DNA from: Campylobacteraceae bacterium
GTDB lineage: Bacteria; Campylobacterota; Campylobacteria; Campylobacterales; Sulfurovaceae
Direction: 5' to 3'
DNA: 11,610 nt
Assembly: GCA_027031505.1 (NCBI GenBank)
Contig: JALVQH010000306.1
Span: 5,623-17,232 of the forward strand
The notes under the pieces are model-generated. The model was not told the DNA's origin. It saw only the letters and a list, made by a program, of their open reading frames with translations, and ran no database searches. A program made the position numbers and the translations under genes. Position 1 is the first letter of the stretch. Each line of letters starts with the position of its first letter. Shown here piece by piece: positions 3,620 to 10,651 of the stretch.

Positions 3620-3628
3620 TGGTATGAT
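3620..3628 (+). promoter_or_regulatory. Putative promoter of the P-box/hybrid-kinase operon (TGGTATGAT)
   Basis: TG-G-TATGAT is an extended -10, 42 bases before the first sensor gene, in the 71-bp gap after the membrane protein. A TTGTCA at 3594-3599 resembles a -35, but its spacer of 23 bp is too long to count. AGGAG at 3653-3657 provides the ribosome-binding site. No palindrome that could serve as an operator was seen in this short gap. Confidence 0.5.
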
Positions 3629-3661: not shown

Positions 3662-4432
3662 ATGATTCGCCTGTTGAGAATCGCACTGATCGGTCTTTTT
3701 TTCGGGACATACGCCGGTTGGGGTCTCGAAATCAAAAATCTCTCTGTTGCAGTGGATGTGGCCGGAAAACAGCGTATGTTTACCCAGCGTATGCTCAAAG
3801 ACTATGCAATGATCGGCATGGGCAATACTTTCGGGAACCCCAGGGAGGATCTCACAAAGATTATGACCGACTTTGAAGACCACCTCAAAGCGCTCATTGC
3901 TTTCAATAAGGAAAAAGCAACTGCCGAAAGCCTGCAGAAGGTGATGAAGCTCTGGAAGCCGCTCAAAGCCACTCTGAAGGCACCGCCGAGCAAAGAAAAA
4001 GCCGGCGACATTCAGGAAAAACTTGAAGCCCTGCTTCGTCAATCCAACGAAGCCGTGGGTCTCTTTGCCAAACAGACAGGAAAAGTGTCCGGCGAAATCA
4101 TTAACATCTCCGGACGCCAACGGATGCTCTCCCAACGGATGGCCAGTCTGTACATGCTGAAAGTCTGGGGGGTCAATGATCCGAAGTTCAAGAAAAAAAT
4201 GGACGATGCCATGAAGCTGTTCAGCACGTCACTGGACAGATTGATGGCGGCCAAAATGAGCACGCCCCAAATCAAAGCACTGCTCAAAAAGGCCAGACAA
4301 GCGTTCATGTTTTTTGAAATCATGAACCGTTCCAGTTCCAAGTTTATCCCGACCCTTATCTATAAAAAATCAAATGACATCCTCAAAAACATGAATACAG
4401 CTACCGGTCTTTATGCCGCTCAAGAAAAATAA
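3662..4432 (+). CDS. Exported tandem P-box sensor protein (PilJ N-terminal / NarX-like family), paralogue 1
   Basis: The 256-residue product starts with a signal peptide (MIRLLRIALIGLFFGTYAG, cleavage near residue 20) and has no other membrane segment, so it should be periplasmic. It has two copies of one helical module. The first carries AGKQRMFTQRM (G35, R38, R43) and the second ISGRQRMLSQRM (G151, R154, R159), exactly 116 residues apart. This is the core of the family named after the N-terminal domain of the pilus chemotaxis transducer PilJ, and it resembles the P-box of the nitrate sensors NarX and NarQ, in which a G-x-x-R element contacts nitrate. Here it stands alone, with no kinase or methyl-accepting region. 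It is first in a four-gene operon; the next gene begins 14 bases on. Ligand binding is inferred, not shown. Confidence 0.85.
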   Translation: MIRLLRIALIGLFFGTYAGWGLEIKNLSVAVDVAGKQRMFTQRMLKDYAMIGMGNTFGNPREDLTKIMTDFEDHLKALIAFNKEKATAESLQKVMKLWKPLKATLKAPPSKEKAGDIQEKLEALLRQSNEAVGLFAKQTGKVSGEIINISGRQRMLSQRMASLYMLKVWGVNDPKFKKKMDDAMKLFSTSLDRLMAAKMSTPQIKALLKKARQAFMFFEIMNRSSSKFIPTLIYKKSNDILKNMNTATGLYAAQEK

Positions 4433-4446
4433 GGAGTAACCACACT

Positions 4447-5265
4447 ATGAAAACTCATACCCTCAAACGGATTCTTGTTGGAGCCTTTCTGGCCACCTCG
4501 TTTCTCGCTGGTGCCGAGAAGAGTGCAGGCGCAGCATCTGCATTGGTACCCGAGTCGACACAGCCCAATATGAAAGAGGTAATCAATATTGCCGGGAAAC
4601 AGCGTATGCTTTCCCAACGCATTGCAAAAGATTATCTCTACATCGGAAAAAATGTGGCGGTGGACAAAGCGACCAGGCAGCTCAAAAAATCACTTGAGTT
4701 GTTTACAAAAAGTCAAAATTTCCTCAAGGAGTTTATCCCGGATCCAGAGATCAGAAACCTGATTGCTTTTGTCAATCTCAGTAAAAATGAACTGGAAGAG
4801 ATCGCTAAGAAGCCTTTCAGTCTCGACAACGCACAGTTGATACTTGACTTGAGCGAATCGATGCTCGAGGGGAGTCAATACATTGTGGACTCTCTCAAAA
4901 ACCAGGCCAAGCAAAAAGATTCGGCCATTGTAGCAACTTCCGGAAAACAGCGTATGCTGGCACAGCGTATTGCCAAATACTACATCGCCTATCAATCCGG
5001 CATTAAAGATAAAAACACGGTCAACCAGATGAAGGCTGCCGTCAAGCTCTTCGACGACAACAGCAAAGTTCTTATGAACAATGCCGGCAATACGGAGAGA
5101 ATCAACCAGGAACTTCAGCAGGTCAACAGCCTGTGGAAAATTGTTCACAAATTCTACCTCAATATCGAAAAGGGAGGGCTCCCTTTTATTGTTTTTACCA
5201 GCACAGACGATATTACAAAAAAAATGGATGTTATTACAAAAGAATACTCCCGACTTAAACGCTGA
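4447..5265 (+). CDS. Exported tandem P-box sensor protein (PilJ N-terminal / NarX-like family), paralogue 2
   Basis: The 272-residue product has a signal peptide (MKTHTLKRILVGAFLATSF, then LAGA as likely cleavage site) and a short Ala/Ser-rich linker before the first module. It has the two best-preserved motifs of the three paralogues: INIAGKQRMLSQRIAKDY (G50, R53, R58) and TSGKQRMLAQRIAKYY (G166, R169, R174). Their spacing is again 116 residues, which shows both genes descend from one two-module ancestor. Each motif helix is followed by an acidic/leucine-rich helical stretch, as expected for a four-helix bundle. An AAGGAG overlaps the stop of the preceding gene. No lipobox is present, so it should be a soluble periplasmic protein. 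The name of the Pfam family suggests pili or chemotaxis, but nothing around it supports that role. Confidence 0.86.
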   Translation: MKTHTLKRILVGAFLATSFLAGAEKSAGAASALVPESTQPNMKEVINIAGKQRMLSQRIAKDYLYIGKNVAVDKATRQLKKSLELFTKSQNFLKEFIPDPEIRNLIAFVNLSKNELEEIAKKPFSLDNAQLILDLSESMLEGSQYIVDSLKNQAKQKDSAIVATSGKQRMLAQRIAKYYIAYQSGIKDKNTVNQMKAAVKLFDDNSKVLMNNAGNTERINQELQQVNSLWKIVHKFYLNIEKGGLPFIVFTSTDDITKKMDVITKEYSRLKR

Positions 5266-5277
5266 AAGGAATCAAGA

Positions 5278-6036
5278 ATGAAAACGCTAACGCGCATTTT
5301 CCTGTTTTTGATCTGGATTGGAACCGTGGGTCAGAGTGCAACCCGTTCCGATATCAATACGATTGAAGCGGCTGAGAAAATCCGATATTTGAGTCAGAAA
5401 ATTGCCAAAGATTATCTGCATCTCTACAGCCGACCCCAACGTACAGATCTCAAGGAAACCCTTGAAAACATGATCAAAGAATTGGGGAAAAACTTCGATG
5501 TAATTGCCGATTCCACCCGGGATAATGACACCAAGGATCTCCTTCAGTATCTGAGATACAACAAAAAGAATATCGAAGAGCTCCTATCCAAAAATCCAAC
5601 GAAAGAGCGATCTCAGAAAATGCTCGACTACAGCGAAATCCTTCTTGAGGGTGCCGATTCCATCGCCAGAGAACACAGCTATCAATTCAATCGGGAAGAA
5701 AGGATGCTGATGAACATCAAAAAAGATGAATATCTGCTTCAACGTCTTGGAAAATTTTACATGGCATCCCATCTCGGAACACTCAGCAACGTCAACCAAA
5801 AAAAGATGAAAGAGAGTGAAGCTGCTCTCAGAAAAGGATTGGATATCATCCAGTATTATCCCTATCCCGATACCCTGAAAAAACAAAAAAAAGAGTTGGA
5901 TCTTTTCTGGAAATCCAGTCATTATATTCTCTCGCACGTCTATGATATGTATGTACCCAATATTATTGCGACGACGAGTGACTATTTTGAGATGCTGCTG
6001 AATGATCTTGCACGCTATCACAGTAAAAGTCAATAG
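5278..6036 (+). CDS. Exported degenerate P-box protein, paralogue 3
   Basis: The 252-residue product has a signal peptide (MKTLTRIFLFLIWIGTVGQ, cleavage after about QSA) and aligns along its length with the two genes before it, but its motifs are eroded. The first reads AEKIRYLSQKIAKDY: the glycine is Glu33 and the second arginine Lys41, though Arg36 remains. The second reads KKDEYLLQRLGKFY: glycine is Lys148 and the first arginine is Glu151, while Arg156 remains. The distance between them (115) is almost unchanged, and the frame is intact with a normal ribosome-binding site (AAAGGA). So it appears to be a maintained protein that changed or lost the ligand site, not a pseudogene. A structural or kinase-facing role is a possible reading. 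The stop overlaps the ribosome-binding site of the kinase gene. Confidence 0.8.
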   Translation: MKTLTRIFLFLIWIGTVGQSATRSDINTIEAAEKIRYLSQKIAKDYLHLYSRPQRTDLKETLENMIKELGKNFDVIADSTRDNDTKDLLQYLRYNKKNIEELLSKNPTKERSQKMLDYSEILLEGADSIAREHSYQFNREERMLMNIKKDEYLLQRLGKFYMASHLGTLSNVNQKKMKESEAALRKGLDIIQYYPYPDTLKKQKKELDLFWKSSHYILSHVYDMYVPNIIATTSDYFEMLLNDLARYHSKSQ

Positions 6037-6044
6037 GAGATATT

Positions 6045-9000
6045 ATGCGTTTTTTCAACAACCGGTTGCTTCTTTTTCTTTTGTTGATTCCTATATTTCT
6101 CCTTTTGGGAAATGCAGGATATCAAACATATCTCGAATACCGTAATTACACCAAAAACCAACAAGCTTTTCATACTCTTGCGGTTGTCGAGGCACTGAAC
6201 AATCTGGTAAACGCCGTCGAAGAAGAGAGTCTTCAGAGTGCTTTGTCCTCTTCCAAAACCCCCTCTTCAGCCCTGCTGCATGCCCGTGAAGCTACGGATG
6301 CTCTTCTGTCCCGGGCTCTGCAGAATTCTCTTCTGCTGAAAATACCGTCGGTAGCCTCCAGCCTTTCAGCGTTGGGAAAAGCTCTTGAGCAGGCACGCAC
6401 ACTGTACGAAGCAAAACCGGTTAAATACCTGAAAATACTTCAGGATCTGTACAATCTCGGGGGAGTTCAGCAGATCCTTTCTGCTGCCAAAAACGAAATT
6501 CTCAAATCAAAAAACTCTATCCTCTCCTCCAACATTGCCGTTTATCAGCGTTTTGCGGAAATCAAAGCGGATAACGATGCGGAAAAGGCTCTGATCGGAT
6601 ATGTCCTGCAGCATAAAATACCCATGACACCCAACGATTACAAAACCTGGGATCATCTCCTCTCCAATACGGTTCTTCCCGATCTTGACCGTATCCAGCC
6701 GCCGGCTTTCTCTTCAAAAATTCGCCAGACCATTCAGCCGACTTATTTTAGCCATCTTGGATTCAAAGCACGGGCTTTTATTGCGGCCGGAGGAGTCAGC
6801 GGGCATTACAGCATCAGTCCGGATATCTGGATAAAATCTCCTGCTGAAAAAGACAAACGTTTGCAAACGGCACAATCTTTGATTCTGACGCACGCAAAAC
6901 AGCACATTGGAAACCTGCTTGCCCACAACAAGCAGAATGCTATCAATTACCTCCTGCAAACTCTGTTGTTCCTGTCTATTTTCGGTTTTATTCTCTACCT
7001 TCTGCGCAAACTTACTCAAGATAAACGCTTGCTTGAAACTGCACTTAAAAATATTGAATTTGACCTGACCAAAGAGAAAAAAGCGGAACTGCAGCGTATC
7101 GTTCAGCAGCGAAAAACCGAAGACATCTATGCCTTTCTCGCCGACACAATCCGAGAATCCAACCAGGCAAAGGATCTCTTTCTGGCCAATATGTCTCATG
7201 AGATCCGAACCCCACTCAATGGAATTGTCGGTTTCACGCAGCTGCTCAAAACCACTCCATTGAACGAAGACCAAAATGAGTTTATTCACGTAATTGAAGA
7301 GAGTTCGGAAAATCTGCTGACCATTGTAAACGATATTCTGGATCTTTCCAAAATCAAAGCCGAAAAAATCGATCTCGAAGAGATTCCGTTCGATCCGCTT
7401 GAAAAATTTGAATCGGCCTTTGAAACGTATGGCGCCAAAGCATTGCAAAAGGATATCGATTTCGGTGTTTATGTTGATCCGACACTTCCCAGCAGCCTTA
7501 TCGGCGATCCTACCCGCGTCAGCCAGGTACTTGTCAATCTCATCAGCAATGCCATCAAGTTTACCGGAACGTATGGTGAAGTCAGTGTTTTCTGTGAACG
7601 TATACATGAGGATGGGGAAGAAGTTGCCGTCAAATTCTCTGTCAAGGATACCGGCATCGGCATCGCTCCAGCAGAACAAAAACGCATTTTTGAAGAATTT
7701 TCTCAGGCAGATTCCAGCACCACACGCAAATTTGGCGGCACCGGTCTCGGACTCTCCATCTCCAACAAACTGGTTACGCTCATGGGTGGCAAACTGGAGA
7801 TCGAAAGCGAACCCGGCGAGGGATCGACCTTCTATTTTACGCTCCCGTTCAAACGTGATCCCAATGCTGCACCTGCCGTACGCCCGAATTTCAACGGTAT
7901 TACAGTCGGCCTGATGCTTCCCAAACGCAACATCAAGCGCCAGGTGGATCGCAACCTCGAATCGTATCTGCGCTATCTCGGTGCCAGTTTCTCTCTCTAT
8001 TATGAAAATGAAATCTATAATTTACCGCAAAACAAATTGCCTGAACTGCTTTTTGTCGATCAGCGCTATGTCCAGCGTGAAGGGGAGCTCGAACGTGTTC
8101 TGACACTGGAAACCTCTATTATCCTGCTCGCATCCGGACAAAACAAAAAGAAAATTGAAAGCATTGAGGATCGGCTGGGCGGATTTATCTTTAAGCCGCT
8201 CAACTTCACAAAAACACTCAAAGCTCTGCAGAAGCACGTGGGCGAAGATCTCCAGAAGCCGCAAACAGCCAAACAAAATATTCGATTCAAGAACTTGCGC
8301 ATTCTCGTAGCCGAAGACAACCGTATCAATCAGAAATTGATCACAACCACACTCAGTAATTTCGGCATCGATGTAACCATTGCCGCCAACGGAAAAGAAG
8401 CTCTCATGCTGCGCAAGCAGAACGATTACGATCTTATTTTGATGGACATTCAGATGCCGGTCATGAACGGAATCGAAGCCACACGCGAAATCCTCCATTA
8501 TGAGGAGATCGCTCGCCAAAAGCATGTGCCCATCATTGCCCTGACAGCCAATGCGCTTCGCGGTGATCGAGAAAAATATCTGAAAGCAGGCATGGACAAT
8601 TATACGCCTAAGCCCATCAATATCGACCTTCTCAAAGGTATTATCCGGGAATACTATCCCGAAAAAGCCCAGATCATCGAAGAGAAAACATCAGAGAAAT
8701 CTCATCATCCAAAACAGACTGCGGCCAATGCTCCTGTCCAAAGGCCCTTGCCGGATCGGGCAAAAAAAACCGAACCTTCACCATCGGATCAGCCCCGGAC
8801 ATCTTTTCCGAAAACACAGTTACCCAATGCGACTTCCGACACAAAAGATATACTGATTTACATTGATCGTCCGCTTTCTGCTTCTCTGCAAATGCGCGCA
8901 CTGGAGGAAGAGGGCTACAAAGTGGATCATGTTCGAACCGAATCGGCCTTTTTGGAAAAACTCGATGCAACACACTATCGATGCGTTCTGGTTGAGAGCA

Positions 9001-9152
9001 GGTTGTTGGCTATGGAAGGGTGCTTGATAGAAAACATTCTTGCCGAGAGAGACACACAAGTGTATATTTGGGGAGAAAAAACATCCCGGCACTGCCCGGG
9101 AACCGAAAGCTACAGAACCCTTCCGGAACTCAGGAAAAAACTGGGGATCTAA
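6045..9152 (+). CDS. Membrane-bound hybrid sensor histidine kinase with NIT-like periplasmic domain and three receiver-like domains
   Basis: The 1035-residue product has a membrane helix at 8-25, an all-helical periplasmic region (26-300), a second helix (302-321), a coiled coil (322-378) and a full kinase core. The core shows [10 protein letters not shown] with His385, an N-box with NAIKF at 502-506, DTGIGIAP at 535-542 and GGTGLGLS at 564-571. Three receiver-like domains follow. The first (618-735) keeps Asp672 and Lys717 but lacks the acidic pair. The second (751-870) is intact, with Glu757/Asp758, Asp801, Thr834 and Lys856. After a Pro/Lys-rich linker the third (933-1035) has Glu984 where the phosphate acceptor should be. 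The periplasmic part resembles the NIT domain: acidic EEESLQSAL at 59-67 and AEKAL at 179-183 sit where NIT proteins have ER-containing motifs. There is no Hpt or output domain, so phosphate must go to a partner elsewhere. It is last in the operon, nine bases after the third P-box gene. Confidence 0.9.
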
Positions 9153-10471
9153 GCTTTCTCTTCTTTGTGAAAACCAAACCAGCGTTTGATGCGCTCACAG
9201 ATGGTAACCGATTTGGTTTCGATCCGGCACACCTCCTCCTCTTGAAGTGTCCGACGCCTGGGCTGCTGTTTCCCTTCGATGATGAAACGCAGCGCGTTGA
9301 GACGGATAAACCCTTCGGCGTCCTGCTGATTGTATACTTCGTCTTCTTCGAACGTCGAATGTTCTTCGCTGTAGAGTGAATGCTCCGACGAACGCCCCAC
9401 GACCGTCACATTCCCTTTGTAGAGTTTGAGGCGCACTTCGCCGGTGACATTCTCCTGTGTCTTGTCGATCGCCGCCTGCATCATCTCCCGCTCCGGTGAC
9501 CACCAGAAACCGTTGTAAATCAGACTGGCATATCGGGGCATCATCTCATCTTTAAGATGAGCTTCCTCCCGATCGAGGGTGATCGACTCGATGGCACGGT
9601 GGGCTTTGAGCATGATGGTTCCGCCCGGGGTCTCGTAGCATCCGCGGGCTTTCATCCCGACGTAGCGATTCTCAACGATATCGATCCGGCCGATACCGTG
9701 CTTGTTTCCGTATTCATTGAGAGTGCGCAGAATCGTTGCCGGGGAGAGTGTCTCACCGTTGATCGAGACGGGATCCCCTTTTTCATATCCGATGGTGATG
9801 TACTCGGGTGTGTTCGGTGCCTCTTCGGGCGCATTGGTCCAGAGCCACATATCGGGCTCCGGTTCGGCATTGGGATCTTCGAGGATCTGTCCTTCATAGG
9901 AGATGTGGAGGAGATTCGCATCCATGCTGTAGGGGGATTTTTTCCCTTTTTTGTCGATGGGGATCCCGTGCTGCTCAGCATACGCCAGAAGTTTCTCACG
10001 AGAATTGAGATCCCACTCACGCCACGGAGCAATCACCGTGATCTCCGGATCGAGACTCAGATACCCCAGCTCGAAACGCACCTGATCGTTCCCCTTGCCC
10101 GTCGCCCCGTGTGAGACGGCATCGGCGCCGGTCTGATGGGCGATCTCAATCTGTTTTTTCGCGATCAACGGGCGGGCGATGGATGTACCGAGAAGATACT
10201 CCCCCTCGTAGATCGCATTGGCACGAAACATCGGGAAGACGAAGTCTTTGACAAACTCCTCTTTAAGATCGAGGATAAAGATATTCTCCGGTTTGATCCC
10301 GAGTTTCAACGCCTTTTCCCGTGCCGGCTCCACCTCTTCCCCCTGCCCGAGATCAGCGGTGAATGTCACCACTTCGCAATGGTACTCATCCTGGAGCCAT
10401 TTGAGGATAATACTTGTATCGAGACCGCCTGAATACGCCAGTACAACCTTTTTGATTTCACGTTTTGCCAT
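9149..10471 (-). CDS. argG: Argininosuccinate synthase
   Basis: The 440-residue cytoplasmic enzyme joins citrulline and aspartate with ATP, giving argininosuccinate, AMP and pyrophosphate, in arginine synthesis. The signature ATP-pyrophosphatase loop AYSGGLDTS is at residues 12-20. [34 protein letters not shown] and [18 protein letters not shown] are all present. The start is the ATG of MAKREIKK, with AAGGA six bases upstream. An in-frame TTG fifteen bases earlier would place that site inside the coding region and is rejected. About 35 residues follow the usual end of the family (after FIIEGK), forming a charged tail with RWFGF near its end. Campylobacter ArgG stops before this. Its TAG stop overlaps the stop of the converging kinase gene. 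Confidence 0.96.
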
Positions 10472-10499
10472 CTTGTTTCCTTGCAATAAAAGTGGGTGA

Positions 10500-10508
10500 A
10501 TTTTACCA
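10500..10508 (-). promoter_or_regulatory. Putative argG promoter, extended -10 (TGGTAAAAT)
   Basis: On the minus strand TG-G-TAAAAT lies about 28 bases before the argG ATG, which gives a leader of about 20 nt. It matches the layout of the rplI promoter. No -35 is evident. An ARG-box-like operator could not be made out with confidence. Confidence 0.5.
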
Positions 10509-10514
10509 TAATGT

Positions 10515-10523
10515 TGTTATAAT
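10515..10523 (+). promoter_or_regulatory. Putative pdxJ promoter, extended -10 (TGTTATAAT)
   Basis: TG-T-TATAAT is the best -10 in the window and faces pdxJ. Transcription would start near 10530, leaving a leader of about 155 nt. The other promoters seen here give leaders of 20-30 nt. The argG promoter lies back to back a few bases away. Confidence 0.6.
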
Positions 10524-10548
10524 CGGCTCTATTCGAATTGAACTTGAT

Positions 10549-10651
10549 GAAGTACGACCACTTCGGGCGGGTTCGATGGCGACCAAGGAGCACTCAACCC
10601 CAAAGGGGCGCTTGCGTTTGCGACGCCAGAATCATCGAATCCGCCCGAAGT
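10549..10651 (+). promoter_or_regulatory. Highly structured pdxJ leader: candidate cis-regulatory RNA or small RNA
   Basis: Positions 10561-10578 (CTTCGGGCGGGTTCGATG) pair with 10633-10650. All eighteen bases pair, with one G-U. One further pair at each end (A-T outside, G-T inside) makes 20. The 52-base enclosed part contains CCCC-AAA-GGGG (10598-10608) and an alternative GGCG/CGCC pairing (10607-10610 with 10624-10627) that cannot form at the same time. Just upstream GAAGT (10549-10553) can pair with ACTTC (10560-10564), which competes with the base of the long stem. TTTATT follows the stem, a weak terminator-like tail. I do not recognise it as a known riboswitch, SRP RNA or tRNA. It lies between the pdxJ promoter and the pdxJ ribosome-binding site, so control of pdxJ is the simplest idea. 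A short independent RNA or a mobile palindrome is also possible. Confidence 0.55.

Follow-up and report, generated by a model that had tools for sequence, protein, structure and literature searches.

The 11,610-nucleotide stretch of Sulfurovaceae DNA considered here (the window; on contig C306 of a genome in 373 contigs that is 95.8% complete) carries four consecutive genes on the plus strand, encoding three stand-alone P-box proteins (P1, P2, and P3) and a hybrid histidine kinase, which may together constitute one sensory module in which part of the sensing takes place off the kinase. In this reading, which is favored here but held tentatively, P1 and P2 would serve as receptors and P3 as an adaptor, and nitrate or nitrite would be the likely ligand. 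The observations behind it are the gene order and its conservation, the domain content of the four proteins, the predicted folds of P2 and of the kinase sensor, and the conservation of motifs.

The original prediction described a tight plus-strand cluster of P-box genes and a hybrid kinase gene, and this is confirmed: P1 (3662..4432, 256 residues), P2 (4447..5265, 272 residues), P3 (5278..6036, 252 residues), and the kinase (6045..9152, 1035 residues) follow one another with gaps of 14, 12, and 8 bases. The kinase is of the hybrid type, as HisKA (7167..7361), HATPase_c (7503..7853), and a receiver domain (8301..8645), all on the plus strand, are matched together. A degenerate second receiver (8850..9068) scores 22.6 bits against PF00072, for which the cut-off is 30.2, and carries, as judged by eye, a glutamate in place of the expected phospho-acceptor aspartate. 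The NIT-like sensor (residues 21–294; 6105..6926) is flanked by two hydrophobic segments.

P1 and P2 each match PF13675 in two stretches, with scores of 72.9 and 69.7 bits, respectively, above the curated cut-off of 26.6 bits; P3, at 15.7 bits, stays under the cut-off and is nevertheless homologous to P2. All three proteins are hydrophobic at the N-terminus, show no membrane-like segment further on, and lack cysteine in their first 35 residues, and judging from these sequence features they are probably exported to the periplasm. Across the three families, an N-terminal hydrophobic stretch is present in 53/62 P1, 52/60 P2, and 59/66 P3 proteins, and a later one in 1/62, 0/60, and 1/66.

The nitrate-binding N-box has been described by the pattern [IVL]-[ND]-x-A-G-x-Q-R-M-L-[ST]-Q (PMC6381276). 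The first box of P2 (INIAGKQRMLSQ, 4582..4617, plus strand, as for all boxes) matches this pattern exactly, and the second (VATSGKQRMLAQ, 4930..4965) deviates at three positions with its G-x-x-R kept. In the window's P1, the full pattern is found in neither box, the first (VDVAGKQRMFTQ, 3752..3787, residues 31–42) and the second (INISGRQRMLSQ, 4100..4135, residues 147–158) each having one mismatch and an intact G-x-x-R. The best windows of shuffled proteins carry 4 to 7 mismatches. P3 contains a remnant of the first box (IEAAEKIRYLSQ, 5362..5397) with four mismatches; at the position of the nitrate-contacting glycine it has a glutamate, which is shared by 23 of 27 aligned P3 proteins. At the family level, the full pattern is found in 41/60 P2, 22/62 P1, and 0/66 P3 proteins, and both glycines and both arginines are kept in 54/62 P1 and 38/60 P2 proteins. 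The nitrate-site signature is thus present in P1 and P2, but the earlier treatment of the three P-box proteins as like receptors holds for these two only, as P3 lacks the motif and is yet the constant neighbor of the kinase.

This constancy is seen throughout the family. A search of 120 family genomes detected the N-terminus of the kinase in 75; 80 kinase loci (L036–L115) from the better-scoring rows were examined together with the window, most rows weaker than approximately E 1e-11 being left out, and arrangements were counted over 80 kinases whose upstream sequence spans 300 bases or more. P3 is the next P-box gene upstream in 66 of these 80, which are all of the kinases that have P-box genes, so stand-alone P-box proteins and NIT-type hybrid kinases are co-located as expected. 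The gap between P3 and the kinase is 0–18 bases in 60/66 cassettes, with extremes of −59 and 402. P1 and P2 vary in number and presence among the cassettes, the motif being usually kept: 33 arrays are P1–P2–P3, 12 are P2–P3, 11 are P1–P1–P2–P3, 8 consist of P3 alone, and two are longer. A contig end is reached, or lies at most 120 bases away, in 3 of the 12 P2–P3 arrays and 2 of the 8 P3-alone arrays, and one of the 8 (L113) is preceded by a weak P2-like fragment. P3 occurs in 65 of the 120 genomes and the kinase in all 65; the P3 profile also picks up P2 (down to 3e-41), and the weakest of the 65 best matches (G095, 9e-42) is borderline. Among the 14 kinases without an adjoining P3, eleven (L084, L086, L090–L092, L096, L097, L099, L104, L106, and L112) are 849–896 residues long (one cut at its far end) and have the same sensor type and no upstream P-box gene; one is cut at 751 residues, the L064 kinase has 998, and that of L054 has a more divergent P3-like gene (44 bits) 12 bases upstream.

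The periplasmic half of the cassette extends beyond the family. When 397 phylum genomes were searched with the P3 profile, 23 were matched: 14 in the family, 2 in another family of the same order (f9), and 7 weakly elsewhere (E 5e-5 to 9e-4). In both f9 loci (L266 of G354, 4566-8494; L267 of G165, 6750-10565), P1, P2, and P3 lie in the same order directly 5' of a short kinase (543 and 512 residues) that matches the sensor profile with 194 and 74 bits. These kinases have no receiver match, HATPase_c is borderline in one and the NIT match weak in the other, and inspection of the reading frames by eye revealed no evident response regulator gene beside them. The periplasmic half is conserved in f9 and the output half is different. 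For a scan of the wider sequence collection, the P3 alignment is too divergent, and the closer P2 alignment was used; it yielded 94 relatives, the best 80 of which represent 79 loci; the names attached to the relatives include Sulfurovum, Nitratifractor, and Sulfurovaceae, as well as broader groups of Campylobacterota. Two P3 relatives (P0050 and P0058) bear the database name of a Dnr-type Crp/Fnr regulator, a misfit for a P3 relative.

The AlphaFold model of P2, which is based on 52 sequences and has a predicted local distance difference test score (pLDDT) of 88.3, with most of residues 1–31 below 50, consists of two four-helix bundles. VIA-align places it closest to NasR (17.9 over 228 residues), the LytS sensor (17.2), and PilJ (16.4), followed by McpN (15.3, onto the second bundle) and NarQ (13.1); as values near 13 can arise by chance among helical bundles, weight is placed on the top rows and on the PF13675 matches. 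The model of the kinase sensor shows the NIT double-bundle fold, and the kinase's NIT domain would thus have the same overall arrangement as the tandem P-box protein. PF08376 is not matched in the window's kinase (full kinase at E up to 1, sensor part at 0.01), although 41/48 aligned members match it at 0.01. PF13675 is absent from the kinase, the best N-box window of which has five mismatches, the same as in shuffles, and NasR did not come up in searches of PDB sequences with the sensor. In NasR, nitrate is bound by Arg49 and Arg236. The nitrate site of this protein is a single asymmetric one that contains both arginines and has one glycine replaced, according to the available text of PMC8199190. 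As the double bundle of P2 resembles a NIT domain, a site of this kind could form inside one chain, and P1 and P2, in which both glycines and both arginines are usually kept, might each provide a NasR-like two-arginine site.

The proposed mechanism begins with P1 and P2 as putative secreted, single-chain, tandem P-box receptors carrying two G-x-x-R boxes on two four-helix bundles; a single chain could thereby supply the two-arginine anion site for which NarX and McpN rely on dimerization. P3, a homologue without the anion motif, would be a ligand-blind adaptor seated on the NIT-like sensor of the kinase, and it is better read as an adaptor than as a receptor because it is kept beside the kinase without that motif. 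Ligand-loaded P1 or P2 would exchange with, or attach to, P3 and the sensor, and control would run from the receptors to the kinase, shifting its state. The kinase would then phosphorylate its own receiver and pass the phosphate onward via an HPt protein encoded elsewhere. The genome has one HPt domain above the cut-off, in a 543-residue frame (L245, G000:C182) directly 5' of another hybrid-type kinase frame (kinase by eye), and its product is a candidate relay partner. Physical contact between receptor and sensor in the manner of TorS and TorT would be expected in this reading; what is observed is the conserved gene pairing and the correlation of distances described below. More speculatively, an ancestral NIT/P-box sensor might have been split into secreted receptors (P1 and P2), an adaptor with a dead motif (P3), and a kinase of NIT type with a perhaps decaying anion site. 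A loss of the NIT arginines confined to P3-linked kinases was also considered and is not borne out (both kept in 13/65 versus 0/14 of the P3-less kinases, p 0.11), Arg243 being near-invariant in both kinase groups.

Duplicate cassettes provide a view of how the parts have diverged. Nine genomes contain two complete cassettes, and in each of these 18 cassettes P3 and the sensor resemble those of a different genome more than those of the sibling, which indicates that the copies are old. P3 and the sensor agree on the nearest outside cassette in 13/18. In the three g4 genomes with two copies (G093, G103, and G109), sibling copies are 68–78% identical in P2, 42–47% in P3, and 26–28% in the sensor, a gradient that would fit a shared ligand receptor with a faster-changing adaptor and sensor, and that would also be produced by P2 exchange or plain rate differences. 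The window's own genome has a second complete P1–P2–P3–kinase cassette (L036, G000:C249, 2028-7700), anciently diverged from that of the window, with identities of 35% for P2, 31% for P3, and 20% for the sensor.

Nitrate (or nitrite) is the most likely ligand of P1 and P2, as the exact N-box, the fold, and the association with napA all point to it. napA is found in 55/65 P3 genomes and 33/55 others (p 0.0035, a value that ignores kinship). The idea that the cassette is co-located with nap genes found no support: only G020, G024, G041, and G075 have P3 on the same contig as napA, where the two are at least 83 kb apart, and lie on different contigs in the remaining genomes that have both. Intact boxes and napA are associated over 49 genomes (39 with and 4 without an intact protein where napA is present, 3 and 3 where it is absent, p 0.03), but this is not taken as support because all seven genomes without an intact protein belong to two genera (g8 and g9). 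The two-part arrangement of receptors and kinase originally envisaged is supported in its gene pairing and nitrate signature, but not in nap co-location or in the equivalence of the three proteins. In a separate locus (L225, G051:C6, 3820-13243), a P-box protein of 116 bits with an export-like N-terminus adjoins an NnrS gene and lies about 6 kb from napA.

Several observations weigh against the receptor–adaptor–kinase module with nitrate as its ligand. P3 is without adjoining P1 or P2 in 8/66 cassettes, two of them at contig ends, and Foldseek returned no match at E ≤ 0.001 for either the P2 model or the sensor model. The nearest cassette agrees for P2 and the sensor in only 7/18 duplicates (four of the P2 misses point to L060, the P2 of which is cut by a contig end), and Spearman distance correlations, computed without regard to kinship, are 0.82 for P2–P3, 0.63 for P3–sensor, and 0.47 for P2–sensor; P3 tracks P2 more closely than it tracks the sensor, and a private P3–sensor pair is therefore not singled out. 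The napA association takes no account of kinship, as noted, and napA is not matched in 10 of the 65 P3 genomes (G009, G015, G028, G061, G092, G095, G096, G106, G109, and G110), six of which are at least 90% complete; among the six of the ten in which P1 and P2 were examined, three (G015, G109, and G110) retain both boxes intact in one protein. Members of the molybdopterin oxidoreductase family occur in 7/8 of the napA-less P3 genomes searched (of ten). Neither a tandem PilJ chemoreceptor, which has no N-box, nor the NIT domain of PA4520 binds nitrate, according to the available portion of PMC6381276. Finally, Arg243 of the sensor is near-invariant both with P3 (58/65) and without it (14/14), so the kinase may bind an anion directly.

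Some of these points would be accommodated by the same receptor–adaptor–kinase module with another ligand, such as nitrite alone, a sulfur oxyanion, bicarbonate, or an organic or redox signal, which is considered rather unlikely. The napA-less genomes and the non-universal nitrate binding of PilJ and NIT domains favor it, as do the small c-type cytochrome gene that five g4 genomes have back to back with P1 and the P3–kinase pairs that lie, without P1 or P2, a few kb from soxB in G008 (L044, where SoxY, SoxZ, and SoxA domains are matched too) and G018 (L052), an arrangement seen nowhere else. The exact nitrate N-box of P2 argues against it, and soxB is not significantly enriched with P3 (36/65 versus 22/55, p 0.10).

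It is unlikely that the kinase senses the anion by its own NIT-like domain, with the P-box proteins buffering or delivering the ligand and no contact with the kinase being needed, although the NIT fold of the sensor, the near-invariant Arg243, and the 14/80 related kinases without an adjoining P3 would all be compatible with such direct sensing. Each half of the sensor has an invariant glutamate, and the arginine that follows it, which would make the pair a candidate for the ligand arginines of a NIT helix, is kept in both halves in 12/48 members; the window's sensor has it in neither half, with serine and lysine at the two positions. Moreover, the constant partner P3 lacks the anion motif that a buffer would need. 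A role of the P-box proteins as output, that is, as periplasmic proteins of some other function whose level is set by a kinase autoregulating its own operon, is improbable. In its favor, co-transcription by itself would yield this gene order, and P-box proteins have no related kinase in the stretches fetched for 20 other loci; against it, P3 adjoins the kinase in 66/66 cassettes and the order persists in f9 with a different kinase output half.

The surroundings of the cassette are less constant than its core. In the window, an M3 peptidase gene and a short reading frame lie 5' of it, and argG (on the opposite strand) and then pdxJ lie on the 3' side. A possible extended −10 element (TGgTATGAT, 3620..3628, plus strand) was recognized by eye upstream of P1; it is absent from the output of a sigma-70 scan that requires a −35. 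In the family, flanking genes are mostly genus-specific and housekeeping-like by eye, and nearly all clusters of shared neighbors are confined to one or two genera. One cluster, of small c-type cytochromes, spans three genera (g4, g10, and g6; 9 genomes) and mixes two kinds, a monohaem protein (g4 and G006) and a different cytochrome found in two g10 genomes. In five g4 genomes, the gene for the monohaem cytochrome (CxxCH, PF00034) stands back to back with P1; it is 4.9 kb away in a sixth and beside the kinase in G006. The cytochrome genes adjoining P1 or the kinase are located at L042 13991-14401, L046 13530-13937, L047 4228-4584, L058 3064-3420, L068 3118-3474, and L094 74-460.

Other P-box-like proteins were encountered alongside the cassettes. 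An extra P1-like gene (L042, 12998-13786) with 126 bits to the P1 profile and no PF13675 match lies 5' of a cassette. P-box proteins of about 560–620 residues are encoded in L231, L232, and L243, stretches with no related kinase, and several family frames of this size have four P-box matches among the matches listed. In two genomes (L226, 8181-9833; L239, 1647-3656), a short Crp/Fnr-like frame (by eye) is directly 5' of a gene for a P-box-type protein with an N-terminal membrane-like segment.

Kinases governed by accessory periplasmic receptors are well established, and the pairing of a stand-alone P-box receptor with a kinase looks undescribed; no description was found in searches of full-text literature, the coverage of which mostly excludes subscription journals. 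N-box PilJ domains have been reported in transcriptional regulators, kinases, chemoreceptors, and diguanylate cyclases (PMC6381276). Campylobacterota, including Sulfurovum, are widespread and predominant at hydrothermal vents, as stated in the accessible text of PMC10045233. The assumption that this group does without NarXL-type regulation agrees with the available part of PMC6682613, in which E. coli-type NarPL is not conserved in Campylobacterota; the same part reports that Wolinella has Nss regulators for nitrate, NO, and N2O and that similar genes occur among free-living marine members, so the cassette need not be the sole nitrate sensor. It is nonetheless a concrete candidate for electron-acceptor sensing in these bacteria. 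If the split of an ancestral sensor were true, the cassette would be a candidate system for nitrate sensing in Sulfurovaceae, in which NarPL regulators of the E. coli type are not conserved, and receptor, adaptor, and sensor would derive from one helical fold able to combine with different output halves of kinases.

In NarX and NarQ, the P-box lies within the kinase and the site is formed between two subunits, whereas in the cassette the P-box resides on separate two-box proteins outside a kinase that is NIT-like and hybrid. NreA is cytoplasmic and has no P-box. NreA–NreBC resembles the cassette in that a separate soluble nitrate receptor regulates a kinase, but NreA has a GAF fold, according to the accessible text of PMC8199190. 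McpN, as the available text of PMC6381276 describes it, is a membrane chemoreceptor with a single PilJ domain that binds one nitrate at the dimer interface, in contrast to the separate tandem proteins of the cassette, and NasR is a one-component regulator in which the NIT domain is fused to an ANTAR RNA-binding domain (PMC7496416, in the part available), while the cassette's sensor is part of a kinase. Further parallels are TorT–TorS, LuxP–LuxQ, and QseG–QseE, in which a kinase sensor stands under a separate periplasmic or envelope protein, as reported in the available parts of PMC8534201 and PMC12691602. XylFII–LytS is alike in this respect. The partners in these four systems have binding-protein folds or are a lipoprotein, whereas in the cassette there are several partners, and partner and sensor are both helical bundles of the P-box/NIT type. 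With soluble receptors and a kinase sensor of one fold, the cassette would open the evolution of accessory-receptor kinases to study by mutation.

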